NCBI GenBank assembly: GCA_018304165.1 | Contig: JAGVWS010000030.1 | Span: 1 to 45,843, forward strand | Origin: Candidatus Pacearchaeota archaeon | GTDB lineage: Archaea; Nanobdellota; Nanobdellia; Pacearchaeales; GW2011-AR1 | Direction of reading: 5' to 3' | Length of the DNA stretch: 45,843 nucleotides | Shown: positions 6,136 through 45,354 of the stretch, piece after piece | How positions within the stretch are numbered: the stretch's first letter is position 1 | How the letters are laid out: each line of letters begins with the position of its first letter | Position numbers and translations under genes: made by a program | The notes under the pieces: model-generated | The model's input: only the letters and a program-made list of their open reading frames with translations | Databases searched by the model: none | Told to the model about the DNA's origin: nothing

Positions 6136-6981
6136 ATGGTAAGGTTGCATTATCATAGACTATCTCTTGAAGAAAAAGAGCAGATCAGACAATTAACAAG
6201 TAATGGCAAGAGTTTGAGGCAAATTCAAAGATTAATGGGTTTAGGCATTACAACAATCTACTATCAAGTTAGAAAATTCAAACCTAAAATGCATAAAGAT
6301 TTTAACGTTGGAGAATTAACGGATTTTGAGATAGGAGAGTTAATGGGGGCTTTCGCGGGAGATGGAAGCTTTTATCATAAAAAATATGATTCTATTAAGA
6401 ATAATGACTCGCGTTACAGGACTCGTTATCATTTGTCTTTAGTAACTGATATAAATTATCTAAATTACCTTTCAGATTTATTGAAAAAAATGAATTTGAA
6501 TCCTATTATATCCCATAGAGAAGAAGATAATTCTATTGTCCTAAATATCAATTCTAAAGATTTTTATAAACTGATTAGAGAATATTTAACTTGGGAAGAA
6601 GATAAAACTTTTACAATAAGATTGTTAAAACCTATTCAGATATATTCAGAAGATTTTTTACGGGGTTTTGCTCGAGGATTAATGGATACTGATGGATTTC
6701 TTAATGAAGGAAATGCAGGATGTGCATGTATATCTGAAGAGCTAATAAACAACCTAGCAGGGGTATATAAATTATATAACTTTGATATTTCAAGGAGTAG
6801 AATTATTAGAGACGGCAATAGAAGACCCATATTTTATATCAGAGTTTTAAGAAAGAGTCTTAAAAATTTTGGAGAAAAAATAGGATTCTCTAATTCTCAT
6901 AAAAGAGAAAAATTAAATTCTGTTTTAAATAAAGTGGGATCGCTGGGATTTGAACCCAGATCGCAAACTCCCAAAGCTTGA
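6136..6981 (+). CDS. LAGLIDADG homing endonuclease with N-terminal HTH
   Basis: This 281-residue protein has an N-terminal helix-turn-helix (about 12-47: LEEKEQIRQL, GKSLRQIQRLMGL) like those of transposases and resolvases. A two-motif LAGLIDADG domain follows. Motif 1 is IGELMGAFAGDGSF (66-79), with the acidic residue in GDG; motif 2 is FLRGFARGLMDTDGFL (174-189), with DTDG. Such enzymes cut long DNA sites and drive their own spread. No host intron or intein is visible, so it appears free-standing. The last ~16 codons, reading ...GFEPRSQTPKA, are antisense to the 3' half of tRNA-Pro, so the true C terminus has been replaced or extended by tRNA-gene sequence. Sequence around it is very AT-rich, consistent with a mobile gene. 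Confidence 0.85.
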   Translation: MVRLHYHRLSLEEKEQIRQLTSNGKSLRQIQRLMGLGITTIYYQVRKFKPKMHKDFNVGELTDFEIGELMGAFAGDGSFYHKKYDSIKNNDSRYRTRYHLSLVTDINYLNYLSDLLKKMNLNPIISHREEDNSIVLNINSKDFYKLIREYLTWEEDKTFTIRLLKPIQIYSEDFLRGFARGLMDTDGFLNEGNAGCACISEELINNLAGVYKLYNFDISRSRIIRDGNRRPIFYIRVLRKSLKNFGEKIGFSNSHKREKLNSVLNKVGSLGFEPRSQTPKA

Positions 6982-10948: not shown

Positions 10949-11976
10949 TTAATCAAAAGTTTTGTAAATCATCCCCACTACTCTTCTTCTTACCATTAAA
11001 CTGTTTGCCCATTTTGCGTAGGCATTCCATCCTTGAAATATCTCCAGCATTTTATCGTAACTTATCTTTCCTTCTTTATACTTTTTAATTTTAGTCTTTA
11101 TTGACAGAATATTCCTCTTCCTCAAGAATTTGTGATGATAGAAGTTTCTGAATCCTACAAAATCAATGCCGGCGGATAAATATTTTATGAATGATTTGTC
11201 TGGATGTAGGGTTAATCTTAGCTTATTATTGAGAAAGTTGTTTATCTCTTCTTTCCATTTTGTTAATTGTTCCCTTGTTTCGTGCAGTATTACAAAGTCA
11301 TCAACGTATCTTATGTAATATTTAGCTCTTAATTGATGCTTTACAAAATAATCCAACTCGTTAAGATAGACATTTGCAAAGAATTGGCTTGTCAAGTTAC
11401 CTAATGGCATACCTAAAAGTCGTTCGCCCCCCCCCCGTTTGCAGAATTGGCTAATATTTGTTCAATCAACCATAAAACTTTATCATCGGTAATTCTTCTC
11501 TTAATAATACTCATAAGTATTTCTAAATCTACTTCTTGAAAATAATGCTTTATATCAGCTTTCAAACAAAAAGCATCCGATTTAAGATTATGAGTAACTT
11601 TTCTTTTGAAATAATCCAATCTTTTAATAGCAAATAAAGTACCCTTGTCAACTAGATTGGCACAGGAATCATAAATAAAGCTCTTTTCAAAAATTGGGCC
11701 GATGACATTAATTATAGCATGATGCACTATTCTATCTCTAAAGTCAGATTTTGAAATCTTTCGCGTTTTAGGGTCGCGAAGAATAAAAGTAACCAGAGGT
11801 TTGGGAGAGTAAGTCTGATTTTTCAGTTCTAGATGCAGAACATAGATATTTTCCCTTAAGCCAACTTCAAATTCACAAATATCTCTCTTCTTAGTCTTGC
11901 CCTTTCTGGCCTTCTTATATGCTAGAAAGAGATTTTCATAATCGCAGATTTGCTTGTATAGGGAATTTTCTATCAT
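10949..11976 (-). pseudogene. DGR reverse transcriptase, split by a frameshift at a G10 tract
   Basis: Together the two frames give a DGR-type RT of about 342 residues. The N part (from ATG 11976, MIENSLYKQICDYENLFLAY) contains FRDRIVHHAIINVIGPIFEK and CLKADIKHYF, with the first catalytic Asp. It runs out of frame at ten G (11427-11436) and stops at 11413. The C part has LGNLTSQFFANVYLNELDYF, where GNxxSQ is the DGR hallmark in place of the group II QGxxxSP. It also has RYVDDFVI (catalytic YVDD at 11297-11308) and a GIDFVGFR motif. Eight or eleven G would join the frames. This may be decay, a sequencing error or phase variation. RT would copy the template RNA with adenine-specific errors. Confidence 0.85.
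11427..11436. repeat. Homopolymer of ten C (ten G in the RT coding strand)
   Basis: This is a run of ten identical G/C pairs in AT-rich DNA, exactly where the RT reading frame breaks. Length change by slippage would switch the RT on or off. Confidence 0.9.
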
Positions 11977-12001
11977 GATGTGCCCGTAAGACCGAGTCAT
12001 T

Positions 12002-12085
12002 CTGCCATCATCATAGGAGCTAGCAAGGAGGTCGTTCCTCGAATTCAGGTCAAGATTACTGTTCAGATAAACCCCAGACAAGCCC
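12002..12085 (-). repeat. DGR template-position repeat (TR-like)
   Basis: This 84-nt segment lies directly upstream of the RT, where a DGR template normally lies. It is collinear with the variable repeat at 12437-12520: 71 of 84 positions are identical. Homology begins sharply at GGCTTGTCTGGGGTTTA on the minus strand and ends at GGCAG. An in-frame TAG lies just before it, so it is not part of a larger gene. Of 13 differences, five are at A of this copy; six more lie in four codons where both copies look like separate derivatives of an AAC or AAT codon. Confidence 0.75.
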
Positions 12086-12087
12086 AA

Positions 12088-12264
12088 CTAAATAGCCAAT
12101 TTACCTTCAGAGCAATAATTTCTTACTGCCTGCCTACGAAAGTCCACGCATGGGCTCTCTGAAATTCATGGCACAATCAACAAAAATGCGCTGATAAATC
12201 GGCGTGTGGCTCGGCTCTAAGCCGGGCAGAAAGAATAAAACAGATTAGTATAAATAACTTTTGT
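12088..12264 (-). other. Spacer between DGR target gene and TR, probable TR-RNA leader
   Basis: No Avd-like accessory ORF is present. A stem-loop (CGGCT-CTA-AGCCG at 12212-12224, extendable to 12208-12228 with one wobble) follows the target stop codon. In known DGRs, sequence flanking TR is part of the RNA used for cDNA priming; that role is an inference here. Confidence 0.35.
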
Positions 12265-13107
12265 TTAACCCTTCATTAGCTTCATTGCTTTTCCGTATTT
12301 CTTTTCAACTACAGCTATAGCTTCCTCAACTTGCCTGTCTCTTTCAACTTTCAATTCATTAAGCCTCATGCCCAAATTTTCGCGCGCAGCGCCTTCGGCG
12401 CTGAATTTTTGGTTCGCTTCGCTCACTAAAACCACCCTGCCATAATCATCGGAGTAAGCAAGGTAGTCGTTCCTGGAATACAGGCCAAGATCACTGTCCA
12501 GGTAAACCCCAGACAAGCCTTCTCCTCTTGCGTACCAAGTTCTGTTTCCACCTTTATCGAAAACAGGAAGACCTAACTCATCAACATCTGAGAATTTCTT
12601 CCCATCGTATTTTCCATCAAGCCTTTCATCACAAATTACTGTAAAATCATCTCTTGGAACAACGGAATAGCTTTCTGGAGAATCAAAACCTTTAACCATA
12701 AAAGGAAATTTCAGTTTGCCAGCTTTCTCTTCAGCTAATTCAGCAACTCTCTTTACAAGGGGCAGGTTTGTTGTATTAGAATCCTTCATGCTCCTTAATA
12801 CCAGAGCAGGAGTGCCAGAATAGTACTTACCCTTGACTATCCTCATAATTTCCGGCCTGCCTAAATCCCCCAAGTTAGCAACTCTCAGGCCGAGAGGCCT
12901 TACTAAAGAATCAATTCTGGCTTCTATAAATGGATTATCTCCTCTTAAAGTTTTAGTTTTAGGATCATAATCACACCAGCCAAGATTCAAATCTTTGATA
13001 GAATCGTAGATATCTTTTGCATCTTCCCCCTGAACGAAGGCTGAAACTACGCTTGCAGGCTGCCAGTCAAAATTTCCTGTGATTTTCCTTTTAGTAGTTT
13101 CTCTCAT
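12265..13107 (-). CDS. DGR target protein with internal variable repeat and C-terminal coiled coil
   Basis: This 280-residue cytosolic protein has no signal peptide. Residues ~186-230 (GGNRTWYARGEGLSGVYL... through YGRVVLVSE) resemble the C-type-lectin/FGE-like fold of DGR-diversified proteins. The variable repeat spans about 197-224, with Asp, Tyr, Asn and Ser at the changed codons. Unusually, the VR is not at the C terminus: about 50 residues follow, forming a charged coiled coil (NELKVERDRQVEEAIAVVEK). A GC-rich hairpin lies in that tail's coding DNA. The N-terminal 185 residues match no family I can name. A TATTTAAATC box about 23 nt upstream gives a leaderless start. It presumably binds a variable ligand; the partner is unknown. 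Confidence 0.8.
   Translation of the reverse strand: MRETTKRKITGNFDWQPASVVSAFVQGEDAKDIYDSIKDLNLGWCDYDPKTKTLRGDNPFIEARIDSLVRPLGLRVANLGDLGRPEIMRIVKGKYYSGTPALVLRSMKDSNTTNLPLVKRVAELAEEKAGKLKFPFMVKGFDSPESYSVVPRDDFTVICDERLDGKYDGKKFSDVDELGLPVFDKGGNRTWYARGEGLSGVYLDSDLGLYSRNDYLAYSDDYGRVVLVSEANQKFSAEGAARENLGMRLNELKVERDRQVEEAIAVVEKKYGKAMKLMKG
12387..12403 (-). other. GC-rich hairpin downstream of the VR
   Basis: CAGCGCC-GAA-GGCGCTG (coding strand) is a perfect 7-bp stem with a 3-nt loop, 33 nt past the VR end and inside the target ORF (it encodes SAEGA). Bordetella-phage-type DGRs require a comparable DNA hairpin beside the VR for target recognition. Confidence 0.65.
12437..12520 (-). repeat. DGR variable repeat (VR) in the target gene
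   Basis: This is the counterpart of 12002-12085 at a constant offset of 435 nt. It shows the changes AAC to GAC, AAT to GAT, GAC to GGC and AAT to TAT relative to the TR-like copy, all at adenines. Further changes lie in the codons CTC/TAC, AGC/TAC, TAT/GAT and GAT/TAT. All the strongly changed codons have C or T at the third position, as expected for AAY-based diversification. Confidence 0.8.
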
Positions 13108-38197: not shown

Positions 38198-39064
38198 CTA
38201 AATAACGTTTACCTGCTCCAATAGCTTCTTTCTCTTCTTCTTTAGTTTCTCAGGCTCAGCCAGGAAGTTTTCCTGCATCAAAACGCTTTCTCCAGTTTTT
38301 GATTCAAGCTCTTTTCTTGCATTTCCAGCAACTTCTCCGCCCTGCCTTGCTGCAACTTTGTTCTCGCTAAGGCCTTCAGCATCCTTAGTTTTAGTTATTC
38401 TTGTTGTTGCTGCCTCTCCAAGCATAGTAAATATAATCTCTAAGTCATCCATGTGATCTCTCAAGTTTTCTCTTTTTAATTTCTTAAACTCTTTATATTC
38501 CTCAACAGTCTTTCCAAATGCTGCCTTGCTTATCTCATTAGTCAAAATTGCAAATTCTTTCTCTTCCTTAATCCCCCTATTCTTCCATTCATCCGTTAAT
38601 TCCTGCCTTATTGCTATGCCTCTAAGCCTTTTCTCAATCCACTCTTTAGAATACCCTTTTTGTTCGTAGAGCTGCTTCATCCTTTCCTGTGCTAATTCAG
38701 GGTTCTCTATCTCCTGCACCCTCTCATAGCCTACCTTTGCCAGCCACCTCTTGAATGGCTCTGCCTTCTTTGATGGTATTGACTGAATTAATCTAAACGC
38801 TCCTTTGGTGGATACACAATTAATTTTTTGTTTGCCTCCAGAGGTTGTTATCTCCAGGAGGGTGGCAATTTGCCCCCACCCTTCATTAAAGCCTTCATCC
38901 CTTCTTCTCATGTCTTTAAGATAACCATTTGGGTCTTTTGATTCAGTAAGTGTTGAGATAATATCTGCAGCTACAAACCACCATTCATTATTGAACAATC
39001 TTCTTCTTATTGCTTTACTGCCAAAAACCGCTATATGTGTAGTGTTATCATCCTCGATCATCAT
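38198..39064 (-). CDS. Bro-N domain (phage antirepressor-like) protein
   Basis: This 288-residue protein has a Bro-N domain (about 8-112): AVFGSKAIRRRLFNNEWWFV, ADIISTLTESKDPNGYLKDM, CVSTKGAFRLIQSIPSKKAE. A helical C-terminal part with QERMKQLYEQKGYSKEWIEK and a Lys/Glu-rich end follow. Bro-N proteins are DNA-binding antirepressors of viruses and mobile elements; the long C-terminal type is also found in microbial chromosomes. AGTTTAAATC about 20 nt upstream gives a promoter. The gene is flanked by radC 5'-end fragments, which suggests it arrived by insertion. Confidence 0.85.
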   Translation of the reverse strand: MMIEDDNTTHIAVFGSKAIRRRLFNNEWWFVAADIISTLTESKDPNGYLKDMRRRDEGFNEGWGQIATLLEITTSGGKQKINCVSTKGAFRLIQSIPSKKAEPFKRWLAKVGYERVQEIENPELAQERMKQLYEQKGYSKEWIEKRLRGIAIRQELTDEWKNRGIKEEKEFAILTNEISKAAFGKTVEEYKEFKKLKRENLRDHMDDLEIIFTMLGEAATTRITKTKDAEGLSENKVAARQGGEVAGNARKELESKTGESVLMQENFLAEPEKLKKKRKKLLEQVNVI

Positions 39065-39465
39065 ACATTACCAACTTCCTAGTTTAAATCTTTTATTAGA
39101 CATTCGTTAATAGTGAAAAGGATTAGTGAATCTCCCAACCACAGCAGAGCGGCGGGAATCTCTTTTTAATTAACTATTAGTATGACTCGCTATACTTATG
39201 CAAATAGAGTATCATTAACTTAGGTAAGGTTGATAACTGATTTACCAGCAAGCTTTACGATACCAACATATAGTCCTTTCCTCCCCTTTCTCCCTTTATC
39301 CCCATATGCTATTTTATTAATCCAGACTGCCTTTATTCTTCCATGAAAATCCTTGAGATTCATAAGGACGACAGGCCAAGGAACGCTTCCTAAAGCGAGG
39401 CGCTGAAGGGATGAGCAATGAGAGAAGACAGATATCTTATTAAATAAGCAAAGCTTATTCGTAAA
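39065..39465. other. Intergenic region containing the second radC remnant
   Basis: It holds the Bro-N promoter at the left and the radC fragment at 39343-39420. AT-rich sequence (CTTATTAAATAAGC, 39436-39449) before the protease cassette is its likely promoter region. No other gene is seen. Confidence 0.4.
39343..39420 (+). pseudogene. Remnant of a radC 5' end (copy 2)
   Basis: It reads MKILEIHKDDRPRNA, then, after a frameshift, resumes a RadC-like frame over CTAAAGCGAGGCGCTGAAGG (compare LKRGAEALSN of intact RadC). It matches copy 1 over ~46 nt and intact radC (40576) over ~75 nt at lower identity. Confidence 0.6.
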
Positions 39466-39666
39466 ATGGGAAATGAAGGAATGGAAGAAAAACGCGCTAA
39501 ATTTCTTAAAGTCTATGCCAATTTGCCGGAGGACATCAGAAAGGACATCCTGGTAATGGTAGATAATAAACCATACACATGGAACAGCACTTTTATAGAA
39601 ATAAAGGAAAACACAGCTCTCGGAGAGAAAATCTTAAAAACATTAGAATCCATGGGGTTATTATGA
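39466..39666 (+). CDS. Small protein, first gene of the caspase-like cassette
   Basis: This 66-residue acidic-helical protein contains KFLKVYANLPEDIRKDILVM, then PYTWNSTFIEIKENTALGEK and ILKTLESMGLL. Met 39481 is an alternative start. The stop overlaps the next start (ATGA at 39663), so translation is coupled. I recall similar small proteins in other archaea but cannot name a family. It may be a regulator or inhibitor of the downstream protease; that is an inference from the operon. Confidence 0.6.
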   Translation: MGNEGMEEKRAKFLKVYANLPEDIRKDILVMVDNKPYTWNSTFIEIKENTALGEKILKTLESMGLL

Positions 39667-39920
39667 CCTACGAAGAAACGGGCTCTAAAATAAACGAGGA
39701 CCTTCAAAAGTTAGTTGCCTTTAGGATAGAAACTTTACTGCCCCCTAACTTAAAGCTATCTGTTGGCTCTTACGGAAGTTTTAGCAAGGAAGAATTGATT
39801 GAGCACATTCAAAAAGGAGATGAAATAGGGCAGGCAATAATGGAATCTCATAGAAGTTTTATGAAGGCCTTGATGAGCGGCGAATTTACTGATGCCCTTG
39901 TAAGCGCAGTTCAAGAATGA
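39663..39920 (+). CDS. Small helical protein, second gene of the caspase-like cassette
   Basis: This 85-residue protein starts MTYEETGSKINEDLQKLVAF. The segment LKLSVGSYGSFSKEELIEHI is followed by KGDEIGQAIMESHRSFMKAL. It is mainly alpha-helical and acidic. Start ATG 39663 overlaps the preceding stop and its own TGA (39918-39920) overlaps the next ATG. The family is not recognised; the strict coupling implies a stoichiometric partner of its neighbours. Confidence 0.6.
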   Translation: MTYEETGSKINEDLQKLVAFRIETLLPPNLKLSVGSYGSFSKEELIEHIQKGDEIGQAIMESHRSFMKALMSGEFTDALVSAVQE

Positions 39921-40564
39921 AAACCGGAATGATTATTACAATGCCCAGGCATGATCAGGTCACTGAATACCTGTCTCAATTCTCTGCAGAGATTATAGAA
40001 GAAGCAGATTCTAAGGGGATAAGTGTAAGAAGATTAGAAGATAGTGAGGCAAATTCCGAAAGTTTTGAAAAAGCTGTCAAAAAGCTGGATTATAACTTTC
40101 TCTTCTTTAATGGACACGGGTCTAGTACTGAAATTATGGGGCACAAAACATGGATAATCATGCTAGGAAAGAATGAGAGTTTACTTCATGACAGAATAAC
40201 TTATGCCAGATCGTGTGATGCCGGAAGGACTCTTGGATTTAAGATAATTCAGGATTCGCAGAGGGCATGTTTTATCGGGTATAACAAGCCCTTTCAATTT
40301 TATACTGATGACAACTGGTCTTCCACGCCATTAAAAGATAACAAGGCGAGATTGTTTCTGGAGCCTTCAAATATTATCCCTATTTCTATTTTAAAGGGTA
40401 ATTCTGCAATAGTTGCTTGTGATAAATCAAAGAAAGCTTTTATGAAAAACATCCACAAACTCCTAAAAGAAAGGACTGAAGGGGCATATTTACTTGCCGG
40501 AGCCTTATGGAATAATTATACCGCGCAAGTTATCCTGGGGAATAATAAAGCCAGGATGATTTAG
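39917..40564 (+). CDS. Caspase/CHAT-like cysteine protease (clan CD-like)
   Basis: This 215-residue protein has a caspase-like core. A strand ends in YNFLFFNGHGSSTEIMG, with candidate catalytic His67 in NGHGS. The next strand, ITYARSCDAGRTLG, has candidate Cys100 in SCDAG. The H-G / C-x-x-G dyad order and spacing (33 residues) fit caspase, gingipain and CHAT proteases. The second half (about 110-215) is helical with KGNSAIVACDKSKKAF. No signal peptide is seen. It is translationally coupled to two small genes and lies 11 nt before radC. In other prokaryotes such proteases serve in programmed cell death or phage defence. Confidence 0.75.
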   Translation: MKTGMIITMPRHDQVTEYLSQFSAEIIEEADSKGISVRRLEDSEANSESFEKAVKKLDYNFLFFNGHGSSTEIMGHKTWIIMLGKNESLLHDRITYARSCDAGRTLGFKIIQDSQRACFIGYNKPFQFYTDDNWSSTPLKDNKARLFLEPSNIIPISILKGNSAIVACDKSKKAFMKNIHKLLKERTEGAYLLAGALWNNYTAQVILGNNKARMI

Positions 40565-40575
40565 AGGAAAATTAT

Positions 40576-41241
40576 ATGAAAATCAAGTCCCTTCCGGATG
40601 ACTCCCGCCCAAGAGAGCGCTTTCTGAAGCGAGGCGCGGAAGCGCTGAGCAACGCGGAGCTGCTGGCGATTATTCTAAGAACTGGCAACTTACAGGAAAA
40701 TGTCATTGAGATGTCCAACCGTCTTCTTTCCCAATATAATCTTGACAAGCTATTTGACTGCTCACTTAAAGAACTTCAAGAAATAAAAGGAATTGGTCCT
40801 AGTAAGGCGATGCAGATTCTTGCTATTGCTGAATTATCAAAGAGGGCAAGTCAAATCAAGAACCCCATTAAGAAAATAACCAATGCTAAAGATGTTTTTG
40901 ACCTATTCCATGAACGCCTTAAAGATGACAAGCAGGAAAACTTCATTGTCCTAATGTTAAGCGCTAAGAACAATATTATTGGCGATCAGCTTGTCTTTAA
41001 AGGCACCCTCGATAGTGCTCTAATTCATCCCAGAGAAGTTTTCAAAGCGGCCATCAGAAGCTCGGCATCAAAAATAATCCTTGTTCATAATCATCCTAGC
41101 GGCGATCCCGCACCAAGTGAAGATGATTTAAAAATAACACAAATCCTCATCGATGCCGGCAAGATGCTAAACATACCCATACTAGATCATGTGATAGTGG
41201 GAAAGGAAAAGTGGTGGAATTGGGTGGAGAGAAAGAAATGA
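40576..41241 (+). CDS. radC: RadC family JAB/MPN protein
   Basis: This 221-residue protein has an N-terminal conserved segment (SRPRERFLKRGAEALSNAEL), a helix-hairpin-helix (LKELQEIKGIGPSKAMQI, about 64-82) and a JAMM metal site, VHNHPSGDPAPSEDD (170-184). RadC/UPF0758 proteins are frequent in mobile and defence regions. Their biochemical role is unclear; metalloprotease or nuclease activity has been proposed. The start lies 12 nt after the protease gene stop, so it is probably in the same transcript. Two degraded copies of its 5' end lie upstream. Confidence 0.9.
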   Translation: MKIKSLPDDSRPRERFLKRGAEALSNAELLAIILRTGNLQENVIEMSNRLLSQYNLDKLFDCSLKELQEIKGIGPSKAMQILAIAELSKRASQIKNPIKKITNAKDVFDLFHERLKDDKQENFIVLMLSAKNNIIGDQLVFKGTLDSALIHPREVFKAAIRSSASKIILVHNHPSGDPAPSEDDLKITQILIDAGKMLNIPILDHVIVGKEKWWNWVERKK

Positions 41242-41950: not shown

Positions 41951-44686
41951 ATGGATTTGTCTGAGAAAGAAACGCGAGAGAAAATTATTGATCCATGGCT
42001 GAATGATACGGCTGGATGGAGAGAAGATTATATTAAAAGAGAAGTTAATTCTATCAAATCTGACTTTAAGACTGGAAGTTATGAAATTAAGCGAGGCGAA
42101 GGAAAGGAAGAAGGTAAATTCATTGACTATGTATTATTAGATGAGCATAGCAAGCCATTAGCAATAATAGAAGCTAAGAGATTCTCACTAGACGCTGAAA
42201 AGGGAAGTATTCAAGCCACTACTTATCAAAAGGATATTGAATCACAGATAAATTTTGCAGTGCCTATTTTTATGACTAATGGGCAAAAGTGGTTCTTCAA
42301 AGAAAAAGGTTATCCTACACGAGAAGTTTCAGGCCCATTTTCACAAAAAGATTTGCAAAGAAGGACACAATTGGCTAAAGAAAGGCAAAAGTTAGGCAAT
42401 ATTGAAATAAACACCAATATTGTTAACAGGTCTAGAAATGTAGAAGCAGTAAAACAGATATTAAACCATCTTGAAAAGGGAAATAGAAAAGCGTTAATCA
42501 ATATGGCTACAGGTACTGGAAAGACAAGAGTCGCAATGGCCATAATTGAGGCCTTGATAAGAGCAAGATATGTGCAAAATGTATTATTTGTTGTTGATAG
42601 AATCTCCTTGGGAAGGCAAACCTTCAATGAAGGATTTGGAAGTTTTCTGAAAGGTGAGCCGAAAACTCTTCTAAATGAAGAACATGATTTTGAAATGGAT
42701 AAAAGAATGTATGTTTCAACAGTGCAAACATTGAAGAGCAAGAGAGCTGAAGGGGGTTTTAAACTTCAAAACTTTACACCAGGATTCTTTGATTTAATCA
42801 TATTTGATGAAGCACACAGATCTTATTATGATCAAGAGAGATTATTATTCAAGTACTTTGATGCAATTCAGATAGGATTAACAGCTACTCCTTCAAAGAG
42901 CGAAGCAAGAGATACCTATGACCTATTTGACTGCCCAAGAGGCGAGCCTACAGTGAAGTATGATTATGATGAAGCTGTTAGAGACAGTGTTCTTGCGCCC
43001 TATGAGGCACAAATAATTGCTACAAAGGTTACAGAATTAGGCATAAGGGGCATTGAACTTGATAACGAACTTAAAACAGAATTAATAAAACAAGATGAAG
43101 ACCCAGACCATTTCAAATCTCCGGGAAGTAGATTTGAAAAATATTTTACTGATGATAAGACCAATGAGTTAATTGTAATGGAGTTCATGAATAGTTGTTA
43201 TAAAACTGATGATGATAAACCTTGTAAGACAATATTCTTCTGCGCAAGTGTCAATCATGCCAATAGATTAAAAGAAAGATTTGATAGCCTATATCCTAAT
43301 CTATGCGATGACACGGTAGTCATAGTTTCTAATAAGGACAGGTATATGGATGAAGTCAAGAGATTTCTGAAAGACTCCAGTCCCAGGATTGCCTTATCAG
43401 TAGGAGTATTAGATACTGGAATTGACTTGCCTGAAATAATGAATTTAGTATTTGTTACTCCAGTATTTTCAAACATTAGATTTTGGCAGATGCTTGGAAG
43501 AGGAACTAGAAGCTTTTCAGCATGCAAGAATAAATCATGGCTTCCTACTATTGATGGAATTCATAATAAAAAAGATTTTAGACTCCTTGACTTTAAATTT
43601 GGTGATTTCACAAATGTCAAGCAACATCAGCTTGAAGTAACAGATAAATCTAGAATAACGGAGGATATGAAAGTAAAGATTTTCAATAAAGAAGTTGATT
43701 TACTAAATAAGAGTCTAACCAATAACGAAAAATCAATAATTGAGAAGAAGATTATTGATGATATCAATCAAATTGATAGAAAATCCTTCATTGTCAAGCC
43801 TAAGTTAGAGATAATTAAAAAAGTTGTTTCAAAAAAAATTGATTTAAAAGAACATATTGAGGCTCTAAAGAAAGAAATAGCTCCGCTTATTAAGTTCACA
43901 GATTTTGGGGATGCAAGAGTTCAAGTCTTTATATCGCGCTGCGTAGACCTGTTTAGTTATGTCAAAGCTGATGACTCAGAAGCAAAACTCCAAGAACAAG
44001 ACTTCTTAATGGAGAGGATTGAGAATGTTTGGAGTTCAAACCTTCAAGTTGTAAGAGCAAAGCATGAAAAAATCATGAAGGTCATGCAAGAAAAATTCTG
44101 GAATGAATTAACCTTTGCTGATATTGACTTCCTTATCAGAGAAATAGCTCCTTTGATGAAGTATTACGAACCGGAAAGAAAGAGGATAATCCACATTAAC
44201 GCCCCCGATATGTTGAGGAGCATTGAAGAGTTTAAAATGCCAATAAGAGAAGATCCAGACTTAGAGTATATTAAAAATTCTGAATTGATGCAAAAAATGG
44301 TCAAACAAGGAGTTACATGGAAGGAGCTTTACGAAATAGAAGAGGAACTAACAAAGCTTAATTCTGCCTGGACTATTGAAAATATCCAAAAAAGAGAAGA
44401 TTTTGTGTTATTCCTTAGAGGCATTCTCAATCTTAAAGACCTTCCAGACCCTCAAGAAATGATTAAGAATGAGTTTGAAAGGCTCATTGTTGAGAATAAT
44501 AAGCAATATAATGCCGGACAAATTAATTTCCTAAGGCTTCTTGAGAAGTTCTTCGCCTTTAATAAACACCTCACTCCTAAAGACCTTACCTCTCACCCCT
44601 TAACTGATGAGAATCCACTTGACAAATTTAGTTCTGAGCAGCTTAAGGAAATAATCAAAGAAGCAGAGAAGATAAGGATAAAATGA
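41951..44686 (+). CDS. HsdR-like nuclease-helicase (type I restriction R subunit family)
   Basis: This is a 911-residue protein. The N-terminal HSDR_N PD-(D/E)XK nuclease has FIDYVLL...AIIEAKRF, with Asp59, Glu74 and Lys76. The SF2 helicase has Walker A MATGTGKT (185-192), DEAH (286-289), TATP (311-314), and motif V/VI in GVLDTGIDLPEIMNLVFVTP and LGRGTRSFS. An EcoEI_R_C-like C-terminal helical domain runs to the end. Type I R subunits translocate DNA and cut it, but no HsdM or HsdS is in the window. It overlaps the downstream DUF3800 gene by 4 nt, so the pair may be a distinct defence module or part of a system that continues past the window. Confidence 0.9.
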   Translation: MDLSEKETREKIIDPWLNDTAGWREDYIKREVNSIKSDFKTGSYEIKRGEGKEEGKFIDYVLLDEHSKPLAIIEAKRFSLDAEKGSIQATTYQKDIESQINFAVPIFMTNGQKWFFKEKGYPTREVSGPFSQKDLQRRTQLAKERQKLGNIEINTNIVNRSRNVEAVKQILNHLEKGNRKALINMATGTGKTRVAMAIIEALIRARYVQNVLFVVDRISLGRQTFNEGFGSFLKGEPKTLLNEEHDFEMDKRMYVSTVQTLKSKRAEGGFKLQNFTPGFFDLIIFDEAHRSYYDQERLLFKYFDAIQIGLTATPSKSEARDTYDLFDCPRGEPTVKYDYDEAVRDSVLAPYEAQIIATKVTELGIRGIELDNELKTELIKQDEDPDHFKSPGSRFEKYFTDDKTNELIVMEFMNSCYKTDDDKPCKTIFFCASVNHANRLKERFDSLYPNLCDDTVVIVSNKDRYMDEVKRFLKDSSPRIALSVGVLDTGIDLPEIMNLVFVTPVFSNIRFWQMLGRGTRSFSACKNKSWLPTIDGIHNKKDFRLLDFKFGDFTNVKQHQLEVTDKSRITEDMKVKIFNKEVDLLNKSLTNNEKSIIEKKIIDDINQIDRKSFIVKPKLEIIKKVVSKKIDLKEHIEALKKEIAPLIKFTDFGDARVQVFISRCVDLFSYVKADDSEAKLQEQDFLMERIENVWSSNLQVVRAKHEKIMKVMQEKFWNELTFADIDFLIREIAPLMKYYEPERKRIIHINAPDMLRSIEEFKMPIREDPDLEYIKNSELMQKMVKQGVTWKELYEIEEELTKLNSAWTIENIQKREDFVLFLRGILNLKDLPDPQEMIKNEFERLIVENNKQYNAGQINFLRLLEKFFAFNKHLTPKDLTSHPLTDENPLDKFSSEQLKEIIKEAEKIRIK

Positions 44687-45354
44687 GTTACTTGTATATT
44701 GATGAGAGTGGAGATTTGGGGTTTAGTAGTAAAGGAAGCGAGTACTTTATCATAACTTGTGTAAAGATTGATGATGAAAGGGAAAACCTAAACTTTCAGA
44801 GGCTGGTCAAGAAAGTAAGGCTAAGAAAGCTCTCAAAGAAGTACAAAGAAATGCCTGAATTAAAATTCACAAATTCGCGCCATGAGATAAGAGATGCTTT
44901 TTTATCAAGAATAGCAAAGCTAAAATTAGAGATTTATTCAATTATTATAAAGAAGAGTCGTACTAAGAAAGAGCTGCAGGAAAATCTGCCAATTCTTTAC
45001 AATTATCTGATAAAGATTCTATTGGAAAAGCCACTTGCAAAACTGAGAAATAATATGCATCTCATGATTTGTTTGGATAGAGCAATGTCTCTGTCACAAA
45101 GAGAGAATTTTGAGAGTTATATTAAAACAGAATTTCTGTCAATATTCAATAGACTGCCTAATGTAAAGATTATACATGAGAATTCCAAGGAAAACCCAGC
45201 TTTACAAGCACTTGATTTTATATGCGGAGCATTTGGATATAAGTATAATACTGCCAAACTTAAAGACGACGCAGAACTCTACACAAACATAATAAAGAGC
45301 AGGATAGTAATTGAAAGAGATAATTTATTTAAAAGTGAGGCAACAAATGGCTAA
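44683..45354 (+). CDS. DUF3800 RNase H-fold protein
   Basis: This 223-residue protein has the DUF3800 start signature MSYLYIDESGDLGF (Asp, Glu and Asp of an RNase H-like metal site) and a later conserved MHLMICLDRAMSLSQRE. ENPALQALDFICGAFGYKYN carries the C-terminal catalytic-type Asp. The family occurs widely in defence islands, and its members are predicted nucleases. ATG overlaps the HsdR-like stop (ATGA), so the two are translated together and likely act in one system. Confidence 0.85.
   Translation: MSYLYIDESGDLGFSSKGSEYFIITCVKIDDERENLNFQRLVKKVRLRKLSKKYKEMPELKFTNSRHEIRDAFLSRIAKLKLEIYSIIIKKSRTKKELQENLPILYNYLIKILLEKPLAKLRNNMHLMICLDRAMSLSQRENFESYIKTEFLSIFNRLPNVKIIHENSKENPALQALDFICGAFGYKYNTAKLKDDAELYTNIIKSRIVIERDNLFKSEATNG

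Follow-up and report, generated by a model that had tools for sequence, protein, structure and literature searches.

A recurrent three-gene cassette of DPANN archaea couples a predicted minimal clan CD cysteine peptidase to two small proteins and is a candidate toxin-antitoxin or abortive-infection module

Near one end of the window, by which we mean the whole 45,843-nucleotide stretch of Candidatus Pacearchaeota DNA analysed here, three overlapping genes, A, B and C, encode two small proteins of unknown family followed by a predicted caspase-fold peptidase. The order A-B-C recurs at dozens of unrelated loci, far beyond chance, and we tentatively read it, with a probability of about 0.45, as a tripartite toxin-antitoxin or abortive-infection module of DPANN archaea in which A and B would restrain a protease toxin, C. 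The genome to which the window belongs, as contig C25, measures 867 kb and is 79% complete. A second cassette lies on contig C40 of the same genome; its C protein is 38% identical to that of the window, and both small genes stand in front of it.

All three genes lie on the forward strand and together occupy 1.1 kb. Gene A (39466-39666) encodes a 66-residue protein, gene B (39663-39920) a protein of 85 residues counted from the ATG at 39663, and gene C (39917-40564) a protein of 215 residues. An earlier note on this DNA had described them as joined by two ATGA overlaps, and both are present, at 39663-39666 between A and B and at 39917-39920 between B and C. Its stronger statement, that the coupling is strict, holds for the A-B junction, where an overlap of 4 nt is the rule, being present at 18 of 22 loci in the order, but not for B-C, where the spacing is looser, mostly -8 to +21 nt among the loci in the order; for these junction spacings, some start codons were set right by hand. 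The sole element recognised upstream of A is a TATA-like box, ATTAAATA, at 39439..39446 on the forward strand, 27 nt 5' of the A start codon, which is a probable archaeal promoter. With a criterion of at least 7 of 8 matches to TTTAWATA and a box start between -45 and -23 from the A start codon, such a box precedes 38 of 58 distinct cassettes, at a distance of ~23-35 nt from that codon, compared with 8-10 in control windows and a mean of 7.2 in shuffles. This arrangement agrees with an almost leaderless archaeal transcript that starts at A and, as far as sequence can tell, shows one promoter before A and three coupled genes.

Pfam, NCBIfam and PHROGs gave nothing usable for A, B or C, in agreement with the earlier description of A and B as small proteins of unknown family. 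PADLOC gave no match to A either, and a sequence search of the PDB with profiles of all three proteins returned nothing significant. Both small proteins are conserved over their whole length. A carries the motif P-x3-R-x-DII...KPYTWN...E, its Trp39 is invariant in 59 sequences, Gly56 of B is also invariant, and each protein has a near-invariant arginine, Arg25 in A and Arg21 in B. The two may be homologous to each other: comparison of A with B by hhalign gave P ~0.002 at a probability of only 15%, and a few A or B proteins weakly match the other's profile. An AlphaFold2 model of B (pLDDT 85, pTM 0.68) contains a helix, a beta-hairpin and further helices; nothing in the structural comparison reached significance, the highest-ranking hits being weak ones to prefoldin-beta subunits, and the model shows neither an antitoxin fold nor a DNA-binding fold of a known kind.

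We looked for naturally fused A-B or B-C proteins as a sign of contact between the partners, but the search returned only a B-B tandem and deletion products (L111 and L118). The tandem is an orphan 150-residue fusion of two B domains standing without A or C (L048/L120, contig C230 of genome G471); the same genome also has a complete cassette, and near the tandem lie a DUF3800 gene and a fragment of RadC. In the deletion product L118:1877-4714, A is joined to the C-terminal tail of C; an intact cassette, which belongs to a different lineage, lies 1.4 kb away, and the surroundings contain Bro-N and RhuM-like genes.

For protein C, an AlphaFold2 model built from an alignment of 23 homologues reached a pLDDT of 95.0 and a pTM of 0.91. 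Its best Foldseek matches in the PDB are SAVED-CHAT (8tl0, E 2e-6), caspase-4 (7wr0, E 8e-4) and gingipain R (1cvr, E 2e-3), the nine top matches all belong to clan CD, and among viral models compared with C, caspase and metacaspase proteins rank high. The earlier note had pointed to NGHGS and SCDAG motifs as the mark of a caspase/CHAT-type protease, and both are present. In the model, His67 of the NGHG motif (codon at 40115..40117, forward strand) comes right after strand 59-65, and Cys100 of the SC motif (codon at 40214..40216, forward strand) right after strand 94-98; in clan CD peptidases the catalytic His and Cys likewise each follow a strand. This predicted catalytic pair is kept in all 72 distinct full-length C homologues, as are Gly68 and Asp13; loss of the His/Cys pair, which the earlier note had named as grounds for refuting its reading, is thus not seen. 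With SAVED-CHAT, caspase-4 and gingipain as its nearest solved structures, the model shows C to be a minimal clan CD cysteine peptidase of the caspase/CHAT/gingipain fold with an intact His/Cys pair.

By sequence, C nevertheless falls in no named family. It is of clan CD but outside the CHAT and C14 families, because no profile match to CHAT (PF12770) or caspase C14 (PF00656) was found for any of the 23 homologues; Peptidase C25 (PF01364) also stayed below cut-off, with one of the 23 at E 0.0023 only. Membership of C in a PADLOC family was rejected, the matches being weak (Cas8b at E 0.005; PDC-S26 at E 0.0009, in one homologue). The acidic Asp13, invariant and placed behind strand 1, could form an acidic S1 pocket, which suggests, by analogy with metacaspases and gingipains, that C prefers to cleave after basic P1 residues.

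Our searches with the C profile imposed no selection for A or B, and still B stands beside C in all 72 distinct full-length copies and A in 71, in the order A-B-C. At the level of gene content, this shows A and B to be near-obligate small partners of C, and the strict tie between the protease and both small genes that had been proposed is borne out. The one copy lacking A, L111, has B and C intact and has lost A by deletion; its genome has two other complete cassettes. The C profile matches 23 of 200 genomes of the order, where A and B immediately precede C in each full-length match, and the B profile matches 40 of 378 genomes of the class, where nearly all matches outside the order are A-B-C again. 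In the phylum sample, C matches occur in 46 of 371 genomes when fragments are included and in 30 of 243 near-complete genomes. Related cassettes extend across DPANN archaea, in ~12% of the group's genomes, and some genomes hold several: two in that of the window, three in G380 and three in G572. A scan of the contigs of 85,000 species added Woesearchaeota, Pacearchaeota, Nanoarchaeota, one Aenigmatarchaeota chromosome (L095) and one 'ainarchaeum' (L103), and gave no cassette outside DPANN, an absence that is only suggestive because the search patterns came from one subgroup. Phage, plasmid and viral collections contained no relatives of the cassette at the sensitivity used, and with zero matches there we rejected the idea of virus or plasmid cargo.

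Two further matches proved to be something else. A B-like match in L106 is spurious: it corresponds to the C-terminal end of an Rrp41-like exosome protein in a housekeeping context. A C-like match in L132 (L132:1538-3148) is not a cassette; it is a 536-residue DPANN protein, distantly clan CD-like, with its own GHG...DSC motif, whose C-terminal segment bearing this motif resembles C behind a set of repeats, and it possibly represents a separate clan CD family.

Cassettes from the GTDB families f41, f42, f56 and f74 share 85-92% DNA identity in unrelated flanks, and this high identity is limited to the cassette and ~100 nt upstream of it. The C proteins of these cassettes are 88-96% identical; for ribosomal protein L1 the figure is 24-49% in those pairs that come from different families. 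Some cassettes are also far more AT-rich than their flanks (35% vs 50% GC; 37% vs 52%). Such comparisons show transfer of the three genes as one unit. The dN/dS of A, B and C is 0.03-0.2, and purifying selection therefore keeps all three genes functional. Where cassettes decay, a damaged C is found beside intact A and B at L107 (NGHG segment gone), L126 and L129 (stop or frameshift) and L130 (cut short); the other decayed copies are remnants. There are zero cases of an intact C without B. All seven breaks fall in C and none in B, a bias that has the expected direction but is not significant given that C is ~2.7 times longer than B (p ~0.1). At L057:1747-2100, a Cas1-like gene adjoins a remnant cassette in which B is left and C has decayed.

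A tripartite toxin-antitoxin or abortive-infection module fits these observations best because the partners come first and the effector last, the codons overlap, the cassette has its own promoter and is patchy and mobile, and an intact C never occurs without B. Compact organisation in an operon combined with mobile, patchy distribution, a criterion for type II toxin-antitoxin systems, is also what we find in the cassette. In the mechanism that we envisage, A and B would be synthesised first and, singly or as a complex, would bind C and hold it inactive. An upset of this balance, either by loss of the module or by an invader or stress acting on A or B, would leave C active; C would then cut cell proteins, probably after basic residues, and growth of the cell would stop. 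The conserved order, the invariant His/Cys pair, patchiness, multiple copies, unit transfer, purifying selection, the pattern of decay and the genomic surroundings all count for this reading. Counting against it, the observation that C is never without B could stem from operon integrity alone, L111 lacks A, the B model has no antitoxin or DNA-binding fold, and many neighbouring genes are housekeeping genes.

We consider unlikely another reading, in which A and B are themselves a toxin and an antitoxin, and C is an activating protease that cleaves the antitoxin. There is a precedent in the caspase homologue MaOC1, which lies beside a toxin-antitoxin pair and cuts the antitoxin at basic stretches, freeing the toxin (PMC7935541); C is likewise a clan CD protease adjoining two small proteins, and their near-invariant arginines could serve as cleavage sites. 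However, A and B match neither RelE/ParE, VapC nor any other toxin or antitoxin family. Moreover, contrary to the behaviour of a free toxin-antitoxin pair, an intact A and B without any trace of C was never seen, and every locus with intact A and B but no intact C shows a C that has plainly decayed or been cut.

The flanks of the cassette differ between loci, and housekeeping genes are numerous in them. Four cassettes have RadC within 1.5 kb where 0.13 would be expected (P ~1e-5), and six have Bro-N within 3 kb where 0.8 would be expected (P ~2e-4), in a test that assumes random gene placement and rounded genome sizes. Neighbours at other cassettes include MNT/HEPN pairs, Cas4-like nucleases, Cas1, an SLFN helicase and YhcG. 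By the genes around them, the cassettes thus tend toward mobile or defence-like regions, in agreement with the defence-like island suggested before. A place for radC and the nuclease genes in the unit is not supported, since the flanks vary between loci. In the window, radC starts at 40576, 11 nt past the gene C stop, as had been stated; as a fourth gene it was rejected, because only two loci have it 3' of C in the same orientation, the others having it elsewhere or on the opposite strand, and we keep it as a neighbour enriched by location and outside the unit. The nuclease genes said to follow radC are represented here by a weak PD-(D/E)XK/TnsA-like protein, an HsdR-like protein and a DUF3800 protein, but are absent after C elsewhere.

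In the window itself, the HsdR-like restriction helicase and the overlapping DUF3800 gene after it occupy 41951-45354 on the forward strand, and no modification or specificity gene was seen before the contig end. Upstream of the cassette, a Bro-N/DinD-like gene at 38198-39064 on the reverse strand matches the PADLOC candidate PDC-S13 (E 8e-88), and its relatives adjoin four other cassettes (L017, L073, L081 and L118). Reverse-transcriptase-like ORFs, recognised by eye, lie at 10949-13107 on the reverse strand; the C-terminal part of the adjoining gene, LSGVYLDSDLGLYSRNDYLAYS, is echoed at the start of an ORF on the reverse transcriptase side, LSGVYLNSNLDLNSRNDLLASS, and by eye the region resembles a diversity-generating retroelement together with its target. 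At 6136-6981 on the forward strand, between ordinary genes, stands an ORF that looks, by eye, similar to a homing endonuclease of the LAGLIDADG type.

The enrichment of defence-associated genes around cassettes would also suit a defence of the sensor-effector kind. A and B would then not inhibit C but sense or adapt and, on arrival of a virus, recruit and activate C or deliver its substrate, as the partner proteins of Craspase or the CalpL/T/S set do. Type III CRISPR signalling uses clan CD and Lon-type proteases as effectors (PMC11417357), and SAVED-CHAT is the nearest structure to C. But no nucleotide sensor, SAVED, TPR or Cas10 is fused to C or regularly beside it, A and B are only ~60-85 residues long, and the phage, plasmid and viral collections, at the sensitivity used, supplied no link to viruses, all of which makes this reading rather improbable to us. 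Less probable still is a unit outside conflict, in which C would mature or dispose of A, B or a derived peptide or would have a physiological role such as host attachment: A and B are under strong purifying selection, and peptide-maturation gene sets also combine small proteins with a dedicated cysteine protease, but inspection of A and B showed neither a secretion signal nor a double-glycine leader, both proteins are conserved from end to end, and patchiness, unit transfer, multiple copies and decay suit an accessory or selfish unit better.

Returning to the toxin-antitoxin or abortive-infection module, we found no description of the cassette in the open-access papers searched, nor by term searches within an archaeal immune-system survey (PMC12988326) and a paper on archaeal dark matter (PMC6393860), and PADLOC does not include it. 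There is a fair chance that the cassette, taken as a mobile protease-effector or toxin-antitoxin module, has a new class of toxin. The wider proposal, a DPANN-wide toxin-antitoxin or abortive-infection family built from a stand-alone caspase-fold protease toxin and two dedicated small restrainers of a new kind, falls a little short of an even bet. DPANN archaea are reportedly poor in CRISPR-Cas and restriction systems, and their defence is described as enriched in compact, mostly uncharacterised candidates (PMC12988326). A mobile three-gene unit in roughly one in eight DPANN genomes would, if our reading is true, be a sizeable missing piece of their defence, and archaea whose genomes measure close to 1 Mb would have a minimal death switch of the caspase type. 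A toxic C restrained by A and B would represent a class of protease toxin that customary type II toxin lists do not include. The cassette would also offer a very small system, 1.1 kb of genes tractable in E. coli, for studying how a caspase fold stays off and then switches on.

Among known systems, protease-gasdermin pairs differ in that no gasdermin gene lies beside C, whose partners are ~60-85 residues long and find nothing in Pfam or PADLOC. Caspases and metacaspases (C14) and gingipain R (C25) share with C the alpha/beta fold and the order of His then Cys, but are 11-14% identical to it and have no counterpart of A and B, and no homologue of C passes the cut-off of a family. SAVED-CHAT (8tl0) is the nearest solved fold, with a TM-score of 0.52-0.58 over the query, and is a His/Cys clan CD protease that serves as an immune effector in type III CRISPR signalling; C differs as a single 215-residue domain with two small partners in place of SAVED or any other sensor. 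No type III signalling gene is tied to C, and Cas1 or Cas4-like neighbours occur at few loci only. MaOC1 of Microcystis aeruginosa links the caspase fold with toxin-antitoxin control through a neighbouring ParE/ParD-like pair, and is thus also a clan CD protease gene adjoining two small genes (PMC7935541); those, however, form a recognisable toxin-antitoxin pair 3' of the protease gene, whereas A and B are of no known family and lie 5' of C with overlapping codons. Tripartite type II operons of regulator, antitoxin and toxin differ in their effector, the list of toxin superfamilies in PMC7935541 containing no protease, and for the cassette we infer both toxicity and neutralisation. They resemble it in placing two small genes 5' of a larger one behind their own promoter, and in overlapping codons, patchy spread, horizontal transfer and multiple copies.
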